Positions 2,980 to 20,782 of a stretch of 20,899 nucleotides of DNA are shown in pieces. The position numbers and the translations under genes are program-made. Under the pieces are notes generated by a model, which saw only the letters and a program-made list of their open reading frames with translations, made no database searches and was not told where the DNA came from. The stretch is taken from the IMG/VR virus record IMGVR_UViG_3300037847_006095, positions 1-20,899 of that record. The stretch is one strand, 5' to 3'. Every line of letters begins with the position of its first letter. Position 1 is the first letter of the stretch. This DNA comes from a virus.

Positions 2980-3263
2980 CACTTCACCTTGTTTGCCCAG
3001 TAAGCCGCGCTGGTCTTTCCTTTCGCGATGTTCTTTCTGTGACGCGCCTTGAAGCTCTTACGCTTGGCCTTCATGCGTGCAGATTCCCCAGCTTTGGGCT
3101 TGCCTGCTGTTTTCGCACCTCTCTCCCCGAATCTTATGATCTTAATCTTGCCCCCGTCACGTACGGCTACGACGTGAGACTTCTTACCCTTAGGGGATCT
3201 CTTGGGCTTGTTGAGCCCAGAGAGCCCATACCTTTTGAGCTTGTCTTTTATCGTCTTTGCCAT
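2976..3263 (-). CDS. Very basic conserved small phage protein
   Basis: 95 aa starting MAKTIKDKLKRYGLSG. It is extremely Lys/Arg-rich, with segments NKPKRSPKGKKSHVVAVRDG, KIKIIRFGERGAKT, and a C-terminal RRKSFKARH-like stretch ending SAAYWANKVKW. The family recurs in phages alongside the EF-hand-like and DUF5872-like genes found immediately downstream here. A perfect TATATTTG box lies just 4 nt before the ATG, so transcripts may be leaderless. Chemical function is unknown; a DNA-condensing or virion-internal role is only an inference from charge and place. Confidence 0.8.
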   Translation of the reverse strand: MAKTIKDKLKRYGLSGLNKPKRSPKGKKSHVVAVRDGGKIKIIRFGERGAKTAGKPKAGESARMKAKRKSFKARHRKNIAKGKTSAAYWANKVKW

Positions 3264-3267
3264 AAGG

Positions 3268-3275
3268 CAAATATA
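3268..3275 (-). promoter_or_regulatory. Bacteroidetes-type -7 box TATATTTG abutting a start codon
   Basis: On the minus strand TTATATTTGCCTT runs directly into ATG 3263. It occupies most of the 17-nt gap after the fibre gene that ends at 3281. A start site about 5 nt after TTTG would fall on or next to the ATG. Confidence 0.6.
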
Positions 3276-3280
3276 ATCAC

Positions 3281-4426
3281 TTACGCATAACTAATTTCTA
3301 GGAAGGCAACAAGGTCTCGGTACGTAGTGGTGGTGCCATAATCGTTGACATATTGAACGTAAAGCCCAAGGCTGTCTCCAGCACTAAAAGAAATCGACCC
3401 AGAAGTTCCAGGGCTATTTACAGTATGGGTTCCGTTGACGTTGTTGCCGCCGCTGTAATCCGTTGTTGCATCGGTAAAAACCCCAAAGGAGCCTGCACTA
3501 GATCCGTTTTTGTACACAAAGAAATTTATGTTTGTACTTCCAGTCCCAAATGTGCTGACATCAACGTTGTATGACACTCCAGTTACATAGCAGTCTCTAA
3601 TCACCCTCATCTCGCCCATGTGACCTGTGTCATTAGTACCCAACGAGCTCCCCAGGAATGTCTGCACCATTTCTGAATCGTTTGAATTTACTGGTTCATC
3701 AACATGCGTCCAGGGGCCTAGAAGAGTTGGGGTCATAAGGGATCTTAACGTGTTCCCGTAAATCTTTATAGCTGTGAGATCGTCATACTGATCTGTCCTT
3801 GCATTGACTGATAAAGCACCTTCGCTTTGAACCCCAGAGTCCGCAACTCGGACTTCGAACCTCCCATCTTCTTTGGTGGTAGTTGTATCATCTGCAAACC
3901 CCCTTACCTGGACGTAGGTTTTCTGCTCATTTATGTCGCCATTGATCGTATTGTAACCCTGAAAGAAAACTCCCCCTAGAGCATTTACACCAGAGACGGC
4001 AGGTGCTGGGTCTAATTTTTGCATTACAAGCCGAGGTCGAGGGTCGGTGTTTCCCTCTTCGGTCTGGGATATTATAAAACTTCCTACACCCGCTCCACCA
4101 CCAGGATTACTCTCGAGCTCTAACAACATCTCATGGGTGTTGATGTCGACAACTTCGGTATCAACCTGAACCTCTGCATTAAGGACATTGACAGAAGAGT
4201 TGCTCCTTTGGAGGTTAATGGTGCCACCAAAATCGCTGTCTCCTAATCTTATCTGACCCTGACTAAGAAAAAAGTCAGCACCAACGGGACCGTTAATATC
4301 AAAAGTCGAGCCGCTAGAGATCGTGTGGCTTCGAGTGACCCCTCCTGGCATAGTCAGGTTGGCATTAAAGAGGTGGTCCCCCGCACCGCCCTCGCCCTCG
4401 AAAAGAACCTTTTTCCACGTAGCCAT
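3281..4426 (-). CDS. Tail fibre / receptor-binding-type protein
   Basis: 381 aa starting MATWKKVLFEGE, nearly the same N-terminus as the fibre at 4762-6123. The body is Gly/Ser/Thr/Asn-rich with strand alternation, for example INLQRSNSSVNVLNAEVQVD, typical of trimeric fibre shafts. The C-terminal third (about residues 235-381) has a jelly-roll-like run ending YVQYVNDYGTTTTYRDL. A shared N-terminus with divergent C-terminal parts suggests both proteins dock at the same virion site and carry different binding tips. The start forms a TAATG overlap with the preceding small gene. Fibre assignment is by composition and the MATWKK start common in marine phage fibres. Confidence 0.7.
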   Translation of the reverse strand: MATWKKVLFEGEGGAGDHLFNANLTMPGGVTRSHTISSGSTFDINGPVGADFFLSQGQIRLGDSDFGGTINLQRSNSSVNVLNAEVQVDTEVVDINTHEMLLELESNPGGGAGVGSFIISQTEEGNTDPRPRLVMQKLDPAPAVSGVNALGGVFFQGYNTINGDINEQKTYVQVRGFADDTTTTKEDGRFEVRVADSGVQSEGALSVNARTDQYDDLTAIKIYGNTLRSLMTPTLLGPWTHVDEPVNSNDSEMVQTFLGSSLGTNDTGHMGEMRVIRDCYVTGVSYNVDVSTFGTGSTNINFFVYKNGSSAGSFGVFTDATTDYSGGNNVNGTHTVNSPGTSGSISFSAGDSLGLYVQYVNDYGTTTTYRDLVAFLEISYA

Positions 4427-12337: not shown

Positions 12338-12566
12338 TTGTCTGTAAATCTTTTATCATTTGCTCTAGACGCTGGCGCTCTACCAGCAGCTCTTTGCAGT
12401 CCGTAGCCGTCTGCTTGATGGCAGTAAGCTCGGCCTTGCGTGCGCTCCCGTTGATCTCAGGATCAACAGGTTTCTTGACTTCGTCGATCATGTTGTTGAT
12501 GGCTACCTCCATCGACCTCATGAGTCGCTCAGCAGCTTCAATGGTCGTGAACTTCTTCTTCGACAT
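12276..12566 (-). CDS. Small helical coiled-coil protein upstream of terminase
   Basis: 96 aa starting MSKKKFTTIEAAERLM. It is almost wholly helical by composition, with heptad-like segments (AIKQTATDCKELLVERQRLE, then QMIKDLQ). The start overlaps the co-chaperonin gene by 29 nt. A small helical protein just before terL could be the terminase small subunit, but I see no helix-turn-helix signature to support this. Hypothetical. Confidence 0.75.
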   Translation of the reverse strand: MSKKKFTTIEAAERLMRSMEVAINNMIDEVKKPVDPEINGSARKAELTAIKQTATDCKELLVERQRLEQMIKDLQTNGGIEEAKDYSGGFAERFSK

Positions 12567-13140
12567 AGAGAAGGTCTTCTGATCGTGTTCTGTAGTAAGG
12601 CTTGTCGTCGATAAAGATCTTGTAGTCCATATCCTTTTTGATGCCTACAATGTCTCCGATCTTGAGCCCCAGGTCCTCTATCCATGGGGCGGTGAAAGCG
12701 ACCCTCGCTTTGGTAACCTTAGACTCCTCTAGCTTGACGACCTCGATAAGATCGCTCTGCTCTCCTGGGTCTACCTCCTCTACGTGCTCTAAAAGCGACC
12801 AACCACCCAAGGGTCTAATCTCACCTGTGTCCTTGCACTTGTAGGCAATAGCCTGGTTGTTTACCGTGTGCTCTGGATCGTACCTGACGAGGAAGTGTTT
12901 GTCTACGCCTGTGAGAACTTGACCCTCATTAAGAACCACAAGGTGATGGAAGTACAAGGTGTCTCCCTCTTTGACGCCAGTGTCGTAGCGCAAAGGTGAA
13001 CACACTACAGGGCCCTCGGTAACTCTGTGCTCGAAGTCCTTGAACTTAGAGTCTATATAGAGCTCGAAACCGCTGTCCGTCTTAATAGTGTCCTTGAGCT
13101 GCTTTTCCAGCTCAACGACAAACAGTTCCAATGTCTTCAT
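12538..13140 (-). CDS. GroES-like co-chaperonin with two Cpn10-type domains
   Basis: 200 aa starting MKTLELFVVELEKQL, about twice the length of bacterial GroES (about 95 aa). The first half has TDSGFELYIDSKF, VTEGPVVCSPLRYDTGVKEG and DTLYFHHLVV. This follows the Cpn10 order of an N-terminal strand, a mobile-loop region, a G-x-V ... VK-GD-V-F hairpin. The second half repeats it (KARVAFTAPWIEDLGLKIGD, IVGIKKDMDYKI, YYRTRSEDLLYVEE), with the final Y(Y/R)-x-R-x-(E/D)-x(D/E)(I/L)LYVE strand typical of GroES ends. Phage GroES-like proteins replace or modify host GroES for capsid folding. Domain identity is judged by eye; confidence in a Cpn10 fold is fairly high. Confidence 0.75.
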   Translation of the reverse strand: MKTLELFVVELEKQLKDTIKTDSGFELYIDSKFKDFEHRVTEGPVVCSPLRYDTGVKEGDTLYFHHLVVLNEGQVLTGVDKHFLVRYDPEHTVNNQAIAYKCKDTGEIRPLGGWSLLEHVEEVDPGEQSDLIEVVKLEESKVTKARVAFTAPWIEDLGLKIGDIVGIKKDMDYKIFIDDKPYYRTRSEDLLYVEEEVHDH

Positions 13141-19161: not shown

Positions 19162-19512
19162 CGATTAGCTTGTTTGTCGCAAATATACACTAAGTAAACG
19201 TAGTCAGTCCACATAGCCCCCGCTCGCCCGCCTTAAAACACAGCTAACCCGTATTGAACAGCAATATGAGAACCGAATCAGTGTGGATGCCCTCAAGCAT
19301 CCCACTAACGATTGCTTCATTCTCACGATCGCAAAGTTATAACAGGAATTTTTAAAAGTCAACCCTAAAGTTTTGATTTAATAGCACCGAATAACAGCTT
19401 GATCCACAGCTTGTTAGCGGATTCTTGGCGAAATCCGCATGGATCGCAATAATTTTTGGGAGTAATGTTTATGGTGGGGATTATATGTCTACGTGTGAGA
19501 GACCTCCACCGA
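19162..19512. other. Divergent non-coding region between leftward and rightward blocks
   Basis: No credible gene. It holds the leftward promoter (19180-19187), an inverted repeat GGATGC/GCATCC (19285-19290, 19297-19302), a 7-bp inverted repeat GCGGATT/AATCCGC (19417-19423, 19432-19438), ACAGCTTG repeated at 19394-19401 and 19406-19413, and GATCGCAA at 19327-19334 and 19442-19449. It could contain the rightward promoter, operators or an origin. No perfect plus-strand TAnnTTTG was found; TAATTTTTG near 19450 is one base too long. Confidence 0.5.
19180..19187 (-). promoter_or_regulatory. Bacteroidetes-type -7 box TATATTTG for the leftward operon
   Basis: Minus strand GTATATTTGCGA, 18 nt upstream of ATG 19161. 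A leader of about 12 nt (ACAAACAAGCTAATCG region) is A-rich without a Shine-Dalgarno site. Confidence 0.65.
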
Positions 19513-19930
19513 CAGAAAACGAGTTTTCTGACCCCCCTCCCCTCGACAGACCCTTCGGGTCTGAGGAGCATTTTGTCCTAACTGCCTCACCGACAGGTCT
19601 TTAGACCTGAACCCTTAAAGCAAAGCTTTAAGAAGCAACGATTTCGGCGAAGTAGCGCCTTGTCCTGTGCATAATGCGCTGACAATCACACCCTTCGAAG
19701 CAACGGCTTGGAGTCTTACTCCAATGTGACTGGCCATTGACCATCGGTTTGCTATTGACAATCCTAATAGCTATGGCTATTAGCAATACTAATTTCAACA
19801 GCAAAATCCCTTGGCGGAGCTGTGTGCCCAGGCCGTAGCCTGCGTAGCCAACTTGTTGGCTTCCTGCGACTACCGAGATTCGGCTTCAACCATTACTCTA
19901 CTTCGTAGAGGAATGACGAGTCGGAAAAAT

Positions 19931-19990
19931 AGAGGGATAGGAAGAAGAGAGAGAGGAGTCTATGACTCTCTCTTCTTTCTATTCCCTCCT
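19931..19990 (+). repeat. Long imperfect purine/pyrimidine hairpin
   Basis: A purine-rich left arm (19931-19960) pairs with a pyrimidine-rich right arm (19964-19990). The core AAGAAGAGAGAG (12 bp) extends through TAG and GGGA with one mismatch and small bulges; GAGTC/GACTC closes on loop TAT. The purine/pyrimidine bias would also permit triplex-type structures. Confidence 0.6.
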
Positions 19991-20020
19991 AAGGGGCTTT
20001 GAGAGTCGGCCCTTTGGGAA

Positions 20021-20034
20021 GTTCAAACTTCAAA
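20021..20034 (+). repeat. 14-nt leader motif, copy 1
   Basis: GTTCAAACTTCAAA, 12 nt before ATG 20046. An identical copy stands at 20795-20808 before the gene at 20820. The flanking GAAGTT/AACTTC also forms a hairpin. Probably a shared translation-initiation or regulatory site. Confidence 0.55.
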
Positions 20035-20045
20035 CTTCATCTACG

Positions 20046-20567
20046 ATGAAAAACTTCAATTTCAGCGACTGCCGTAAGGCAGTGAACCAAGCCACTTTCC
20101 GTCCCACTGCAGAGCGTAAAGCTCTGGCCATCAAGCTTCTGAAAGAAGCTTTGGAGATGGTCACCTCCTTGGAGGAGGTGAAAGACAAGCCGAAGGCTTC
20201 CAAGACCAAAAAGCGTCGTCGTAAGACGACGAAGAGAACACCTTCTCAGAAGGTGGCAGACCGCCAAGACAAAGCGGCTCTCAAGACCAACGAAGTTGGT
20301 CCAATCAAGCCTTCAAAGAAGGCTAAGACAGCTTCGGTAGAAGCTGCAAAGGAGTCAGCTAAAGCTGTCTCCGAGGCCACTGGTGCTGCTCAAAGAGCAG
20401 CCAAGAAAGCTCAGCTGAAAGCTGAGGCAGAGGTCAACGACAAGGTAGCTTCTTTGGAAGCTAAAATCGAGGCTCTGACCGCAGTGCTCGCTGTGCACAT
20501 GGAGTCTACGACTCTGGCCTCTCCCTCCAACGAAGTTGGATTGGACGAAGTACCTTTCCAAGTCTAA
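20046..20567 (+). CDS. Lys/Ala-rich basic protein encoded by a hairpin-saturated gene
   Basis: 173 aa starting MKNFNFSDCRKAVNQ. I chose ATG 20046, after the leader motif, over the longer open frame from 19962, which runs through the non-coding hairpins. Residues about 8-45 form a helical domain. Residues 47-70 are highly basic (KPKASKTKKRRRKTTKRTPS). Residues 93-150 are an Ala/Lys/Glu helix or coiled coil, and the end is short and acidic. The composition resembles histone H1-like or nucleoid-associated proteins, so RNA or DNA binding is plausible. The coding strand carries about 15 strong hairpins in 522 nt (see findings). No homologue recognised. Confidence 0.75.
   Translation: MKNFNFSDCRKAVNQATFRPTAERKALAIKLLKEALEMVTSLEEVKDKPKASKTKKRRRKTTKRTPSQKVADRQDKAALKTNEVGPIKPSKKAKTASVEAAKESAKAVSEATGAAQRAAKKAQLKAEAEVNDKVASLEAKIEALTAVLAVHMESTTLASPSNEVGLDEVPFQV
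20068..20540 (+). repeat. Hairpin series inside the 173-aa gene
   Basis: Perfect stems (arms): ACTGCC 20068-73/78-83; CAGAGC 20110-15/21-26; AAGCTTCT 20133-40/44-51; TCACCTCC 20161-68/74-81; AAGCC 20187-91/95-99; CGTCGTC 20214-20/25-31; CACCTTC 20239-45/49-55; GACCAAC 20285-91/95-301; AGCCTTC 20308-14/18-24; CAGCTTC 20329-35/40-46; GGAGtCAGCT 20351-60/63-72 (one T-T mismatch); GCTGCTC 20385-91/95-401; CTCAGCT 20410-16/20-26; TAGCTTC 20446-52/57-63; GAGTC 20502-06/10-14; TCCAAC 20526-31/35-40. Loops are mostly GAA, AAA, GTAA, GGTA, TCA or TAC. Weaker 4-bp stems occur at 20261-20277 and 20484-20498. Confidence 0.85.
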
Positions 20568-20580
20568 ACCTTTGGTTTAG
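20564..20580 (+). other. Hairpin over the stop codon of the 173-aa gene
   Basis: CTAAACC (20564-20570), loop TTT, GGTTTAG (20574-20580). The TAA stop at 20565-20567 lies in the left arm. No T-run follows, so it is not a classical terminator. Confidence 0.7.
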
Positions 20581-20728: not shown

Positions 20729-20782
20729 GTCTTGTATATCTACTCTCTCTGAACGTAGTGAAGAGAGTAGATATACTAAGAC
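20729..20782 (+). terminator. Long hairpin after the 37-aa gene, possible terminator or attenuator
   Basis: Arms of 15 perfect base pairs (20734-20748 with 20762-20776), extended by GTCTT/AAGAC after a one-base bulge, about 20 bp in total; loop 13 nt (20749-20761). It lies 10 nt beyond the stop of the 37-aa gene and before the next leader motif. It lacks a downstream T-run, so RNA processing or attenuation is as likely as termination. Confidence 0.55.

Follow-up and report, generated by a model that had tools for sequence, protein, structure and literature searches.

Why does a single short phage gene carry a dense series of perfect hairpins along its coding sequence, and at which level does the pairing act? 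The window, that is, the whole stretch of DNA analyzed (20,899 nucleotides), corresponds to positions 1 to 20899 of a 24,797-base uncultured viral record. The terminase and portal encoded in it match phage families. Its closest relatives with names are a Manatee Spring phage, itself uncultured (terminase identity of 48%), and Maribacter, Flavobacterium, and Cellulophaga phages; the group of uncultured phages that carry the gene studied here thus has known relatives among marine Bacteroidota phages. A gene for a GroES-like co-chaperonin was also observed at positions 12538 to 13140, near the packaging genes. The gene of interest, at positions 20046 to 20567 on the plus strand, is the first rightward gene past the divergence from the leftward structural genes. 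A longer reading frame from the ATG at 19962 (201 amino acids) was considered and dropped; the homologues begin at the ATG equivalent to 20046.

Hairpins were defined as perfect, nonoverlapping stems of at least 5 bp with loops of 3 to 5 nt, and the scan counts perfect pairs only. The gene contains 15 such hairpins, 13 of them with stems of at least 6 bp and 10 with stems of at least 7 bp, for a total of 101 stem pairs. As a control, we used 2000 synonymous permutations in which the protein and the codon counts were unchanged. The permuted genes had a mean of 2.27 hairpins at the 5-bp threshold (standard deviation, 1.36; maximum, 8), 0.89 at the 6-bp threshold (maximum, 6), and 0.42 at the 7-bp threshold (maximum, 3), with 12.7 stem pairs (maximum, 46). 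The predicted minimum free energy of the real gene was -219.6 kcal/mol, compared with -161.8 ± 6.4 kcal/mol for the synonymous versions and -160.7 ± 7.0 kcal/mol in a second run (z score of -8.4); as RNA, the gene is thus 58 to 59 kcal/mol below the synonymous mean and 8 to 9 standard deviations more stable. When 23 other open reading frames of the window were treated in the same way, each had 0 to 3 hairpins of at least 6 bp, inside its own synonymous range, whereas the hairpin gene had 13 against a synonymous mean of 0.98 in that comparison. Stem length peaks at 7 bp, about 43% of the coding sequence lies in hairpins, and the median distance from loop to loop is 30 nt. The array reaches beyond the gene: it starts at approximately position 19513, within the leader, and runs past the stop codon as far as 20611. 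The gene and the hairpins in and immediately around it are as follows.

20046-20567, plus strand: open reading frame of 173 amino acids with the hairpin array; frame and start are common to the homologues
20036-20050, plus strand: TTCATC-tac-GATGAA, start codon in the 3' arm; the CATC-NNN-GATG form recurs at other early-gene starts
20068-20083, plus strand: ACTGCC-gtaa-GGCAGT, widespread, also in distant homologues
20110-20126, plus strand: CAGAGC-gtaaa-GCTCTG
20133-20151, plus strand: AAGCTTCT-gaa-AGAAGCTT
20161-20181, plus strand: TCACCTCCT-tgg-AGGAGGTGA; many relatives have instead AACCTC-gaa-GAGGTT in a shifted register
20187-20199, plus strand: AAGCC-gaa-GGCTT
20216-20232, plus strand: TCGTCGT-aag-ACGACGA, or in an alternative reading CGTCGTC-gtaa-GACGACG
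20239-20255, plus strand: CACCTTC-tca-GAAGGTG
20285-20301, plus strand: GACCAAC-gaa-GTTGGTC
20308-20324, plus strand: AGCCTTC-aaa-GAAGGCT
20329-20346, plus strand: CAGCTTC-ggta-GAAGCTG
20385-20401, plus strand: GCTGCTC-aaa-GAGCAGC
20410-20426, plus strand: CTCAGCT-gaa-AGCTGAG
20446-20463, plus strand: TAGCTTC-tttg-GAAGCTA; 97.5% of cells paired among 29 sequences, with both-sided changes in three pairs
20502-20514, plus strand: GAGTC-tac-GACTC
20526-20540, plus strand: TCCAAC-gaa-GTTGGA; both-sided changes in 5 of 6 pairs among relatives
20564-20580, plus strand: CTAAACC-ttt-GGTTTAG, over the stop codon
20593-20611, plus strand: AATTCATT-gaa-AATGAATT, spanning the beginning of the 37-amino-acid open reading frame that follows

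Scans of viral contigs, with E values relative to the search's own candidates, gave 22 loci with the protein as the query and 59 with an alignment as the query, the latter including most of the first 22; in all, the gene, in a near or a distant form, is encoded at 59 further uncultured-phage loci. Searches of named phages and bacterial genomes found no homologue of the gene, and the named relatives lacked a hairpin cluster in the stretches examined. Near homologues share about 50 to 80% identity, and distant ones, of 80 to 160 amino acids, have in common only the 45-residue N-terminal DCRKAVNQA domain, which is followed by a Lys/Ala/Pro-rich tail. Every homologue long enough to test is hairpin-rich: complete near homologues have 9 to 17 hairpins against 2 to 5 expected from the synonymous control, and distant homologues and tandem paralogues have 5 to 9 against 1 to 3. 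A few homologues have only a weak excess in folding stability (z scores of -1.2 for L052 and -1.9 for L081); their minimum free energy, unlike their hairpin count, could be reached by synonymous versions. Tandem paralogues of the gene were observed in L065, L066, L068, L074, L075, and L082 (at about positions 3000 to 3850); both copies are hairpin-rich, and only the N-terminal domain is shared. In a 65-kb relative, 22 hairpins of at least 7 bp lie between 37.0 and 38.9 kb, compared with 0 to 2 per kb elsewhere.

In a codon alignment, the hairpins occupy homologous places and the stem sequences differ. The last hairpin, for example, reads TCCAAC-GAA-GTTGGA, GCTAAC-GAA-GTTAGC, GCTATC-GAA-GATAGC, or ATCGATGCT-GTA-AGCATCGAT across homologues. 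In some 40 relatives, paired mutations keep the hairpins, with both sides of the stem changing even at the cost of an altered protein. With 29 sequences in the register of the window gene, both-sided change was found in 37 of 101 pairs, compared with 14 to 23 in slid controls and 25 ± 3 in shuffles; both-sided-change cells numbered 122, against 34 to 49 and 53 ± 6, respectively, and 75% of cells were paired, against 27 to 42% when slid, all in relatives drawn from a single collection of uncultured contigs and therefore mutually nonindependent, a relatedness that the shuffles keep in and the slid controls remove in part. When the labels came from a single sequence, synonymous third-position differences were lowest in stems (0.21, against 0.33 for loops and 0.35 for linkers); this labeling replaced an earlier comparison that required the hairpin in both sequences and was biased. 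Since some stems shift register between relatives (AAGCC-gaa-GGCTT versus AGCCTTC-gaa-GAAGGCT) and the loops vary freely, it is the shape of the hairpin and not its sequence that is conserved. Base pairing at this locus is under selection, and the conserved trait is a short perfect hairpin at a roughly given place. The same alignment gives the gene a seemingly mosaic appearance, the segments between hairpins being apparently combined differently from one relative to another, which suggests recombination.

The array continues upstream of the gene into a leader, and two long hairpins lie nearby.

19474-20045, plus strand: leader, with the GTGGGGATTATA motif at its 5' end and a conserved GACAATC about 205 nt further on
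19513, 19547, 19594, 19614, 19708, 19764, 19846, and 19896 (starts), plus strand: eight leader hairpins of 6 to 8 bp
19934-19985, plus strand: long hairpin just upstream of the gene, with 20-bp arms containing two G·T pairs and 12 nt between the arms
20734-20776, plus strand: long perfect hairpin downstream of the array, with 15-bp arms and a 13-nt loop

The GTGGGGATTATA motif lies at -572 in the window and at about -430 to -580 in relatives, most of which have GACAATC about 190 to 205 nt past it. The leader, of approximately 570 nt, is much more stably folded than its dinucleotide shuffles, whichever strand is taken (z score of about -5), and alignments of close groups contain covarying leader helices. 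Rfam covariance models gave nothing at the gathering score across the leader or the gene. The leader is thus likely a structured RNA and a candidate new noncoding RNA. A long-range leader helix pairing GGGATT with AATCCC was kept as a suggestion only; L074 compensates, whereas L052 and L083 do not. The hairpin at 19934 to 19985 varies in sequence among relatives and its pairing is kept. Long near-perfect hairpins, each with a TCAAACTTCAAA-type stretch after it, were also seen ahead of early genes at 20734 to 20776 in the window and near 3364 to 3408 and 5345 to 5380 in L002; such hairpins may possibly be RNase III-like processing sites.

Downstream of the array and on the same strand, 16 loci carry a hammerhead-type ribozyme. 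Its conserved core, CUGANGA..GAAA with three helices, has 100% of cells paired, 8 pairs change on both sides, and all three stems covary; its Rfam score is under the gathering threshold. The stem-III hairpins are built like those of the array, with perfect stems and variable short loops, and in the helices C-G pairs are exchanged for U-A, G-U cells being almost absent apart from one invariant G-U pair. In L002, the ribozyme lies at 2354 to 2404, equivalent to 20953 to 21003 of the viral record, just past the window; others were located at L004:11086, L006:11121, L007:10771, L010:10834, L013:10770, and L022:10932. It sits upstream of an early gene (of about 120 to 130 amino acids where checked). 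In addition, the start codons of the hairpin gene and of several unrelated early genes lie inside a CATC-NNN-GATG mini-hairpin. Further ATGs of this type were observed at L002:2427, L086:18254, L086:18677, L019:8595, and L019:9299, often after TCAAACTTCAAA.

Could the hairpins be a by-product of a repetitive Lys/Ala/Glu-rich protein combined with codon bias? The composition is of low complexity, and some loops fall on Arg-Lys (CGT AAG) or Ser-Lys (TCG AAG) codons. Nevertheless, permuting synonymous codons at constant codon counts abolishes the array, the noncoding leader carries similar hairpins, and the loops occupy all three codon phases. On the last point, the phases given in an earlier note on this DNA are exact: measured from the ATG at 20046, the GAA loops at 20292 and 20532 are in phase 0, those at 20141, 20192, and 20417 are in phase 2, and the AAA loop at 20392 is in phase 1. 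That note's argument that a repeated peptide does not account for the stems also holds, as phases and residues differ, synonymous versions lose the hairpins, and homologues retain hairpins even though the amino acids encoded by both arms change. With the real gene clearly outside the range of its synonymous versions in both hairpin count and folding energy, peptide repeats and codon bias are refuted as the cause, and we give this explanation practically no weight. The note had further proposed selection, or mutation, at the nucleic-acid level. A mutational process, with template switching perfecting quasi-palindromes that have no function, would fit the perfect stems, the many double changes with few single-change intermediates, and a loop that appears inverted between relatives at one leader hairpin (CGAAG versus CTTCG). 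Such a process should act genome-wide, yet the hairpins cluster at this locus only, and the array persists across wide divergence and in tandem paralogues. We therefore hold it to be very improbable. The proposal itself is supported, and local selection is preferred over a mutational quirk because hairpin density is at background in the rest of the window and of the 65-kb relative, the array is kept in far-diverged homologues and paralogues, and stems are constrained synonymously whereas loops are not.

Whether the selected pairing takes place in RNA or in DNA is a closer matter. Among 809 unique pairs of the array, we found mid-stem mismatches of 2 G·T, 1 A·C, and 8 other kinds, and only 2 of 762 pairs in the leader were mid-stem G-U. 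Single mismatches do not favor G-U over A-C and have no strand asymmetry, and folding is about as good for the antisense strand as for the sense strand. Such a near-absence of G-U pairs in the array is unusual for RNA and would be natural for DNA; taken by itself, it would favor DNA. The hairpins could act as extruded cruciforms or as single-stranded hairpins. They might, for instance, form an origin, a platform for primase or for recombination, or sites to be bound on incoming or replicating DNA, where the leftward late genes meet the rightward early genes. Besides the scarcity of wobble pairs and the symmetric mismatches, the location at a transcription divergence is consistent with this, as are two genes of a relative, one for a primase-helicase and the other for a possible T7 endonuclease I-like resolvase. 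The C(GAA)G triloops, common in the coding array, also resemble the DNA hairpin form used by the N4 virion RNA polymerase (PMC4496689). However, the loop sequence is not conserved; no T7-type RNA polymerase was found in 11 relatives (no PF00940 match, in a search whose control was equally silent), and a partial giant protein of 1667 amino acids had no PDB match. To our knowledge, some 15 hairpins within one reading frame are unlike any known origin. Moreover, the nearby hammerhead helices, whose function is exercised only in RNA, share the same low-wobble style, which weakens the argument for DNA from the missing G-U pairs. Loops are T-rich in the leader and A-rich in the coding array, and a strand preference drawn from them is not decisive because of the protein constraint. 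Overall, we consider a DNA-level role rather unlikely. The low-wobble hammerhead, together with the strand-specific context of leader, ribozyme, and start-codon hairpins, makes RNA the better reading, and RNA is probably the level of pairing, as judged from these sequence comparisons.

The explanation that we favor, with a probability of roughly 55%, is that the gene and its leader form one structured early transcript, in which selection keeps short, perfect, sequence-independent hairpins along a coding sequence that still encodes a small basic protein. We infer that the pairing acts in RNA, within a strand-specific unit that includes the structured leader, the candidate processing hairpins, and the hammerhead. 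Because the array is kept by paired substitutions, the same stretch must serve both as protein code and as folded nucleic acid; because stem sequence, register, and loop are all free, its function must depend on the recognition of shape. This function might be armor against nucleases, compaction, or the docking of a protein that recognizes short helices. The array would then protect or compact the transcript and offer shape-specific docking sites to a hairpin-binding protein, the simplest candidate being the basic product of the transcript itself, a putative binder. The fold model of the 173-residue protein has a confidently predicted two-helix N-terminal domain (residues 6 to 46), a Lys/Arg-rich basic middle modeled poorly, and a long C-terminal helix (residues 91 to 156). 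The protein matched no PHROG, Pfam gave nothing above the cutoff, and fold and sequence searches gave nothing significant and no homologue of known structure. With such a binder, the mRNA would belong to a ribonucleoprotein or would take part in autoregulation, and it is with low confidence that we suggest that transcript and protein act together as a putative pair of either kind. It is a speculative and doubtful further step that leader RNA, sequence-independent array, and mRNA of a coating basic protein make up a dual-function early transcript, a self-encoded ribonucleoprotein for host takeover. In any case, the locus marks a protein family with no counterpart in the databases that were searched, together with a leader RNA and a hammerhead ribozyme.

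No described precedent for the array was found in the open-access literature searched, and its features can be set against several known systems. Phages are known to use RNA hairpins for autogenous control, as in the coat-protein operators of single-stranded RNA phages and in T4 gp32 and RegA. As in those cases, a small phage protein would here work through hairpins that cover its start codon and its mRNA; those proteins use specific operator sites, whereas the array lacks sequence specificity and any binding to it is putative. Among large RNAs, GOLLD has been linked to phages. Like GOLLD, ROOL, and OLE, which are large structured bacterial and phage RNAs (PMC12286853), the transcript would be long and highly structured; unlike them, it has no Rfam match, and the greater part of the array falls within a gene that is translated. 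The N4 virion RNA polymerase uses a DNA hairpin with a short stem and a C-G-closed triloop with a 5' G and a 3' A (PMC4496689), and the array has similar short perfect stems, three-base loops, and C-G loop-closing pairs. N4, however, has only three such promoters, and the bases of their stems and loops are conserved, whereas the array has some 25 mostly intragenic hairpins, whose stems and loops both vary among sites and relatives, and such a polymerase was not found in the 11 relatives searched, where the control gave no match either. A further likeness is with RNA viruses, in which RNA structure embedded in coding sequence, including genome-scale ordered structure, has been described (PMC4227794, PMC3695492). 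There, as here, structure and other functional elements within protein-coding sequence constrain synonymous sites, and the array likewise has pairing above that of synonymous versions, compensatory substitutions, and suppressed synonymous variation at paired sites. In RNA viruses, the structure spans a whole RNA genome; here, it occupies a single gene of a double-stranded DNA phage, as uniform mini-hairpins of 5 to 9 bp with free sequence and register. Structure within genes has been well studied in RNA viruses, and in this phage a whole gene is shaped by pairing, so strongly that the protein changes to fit the hairpins, which gives a natural case in which the conflict, and the compromise, between coding for a protein and folding as a nucleic acid can be tested.
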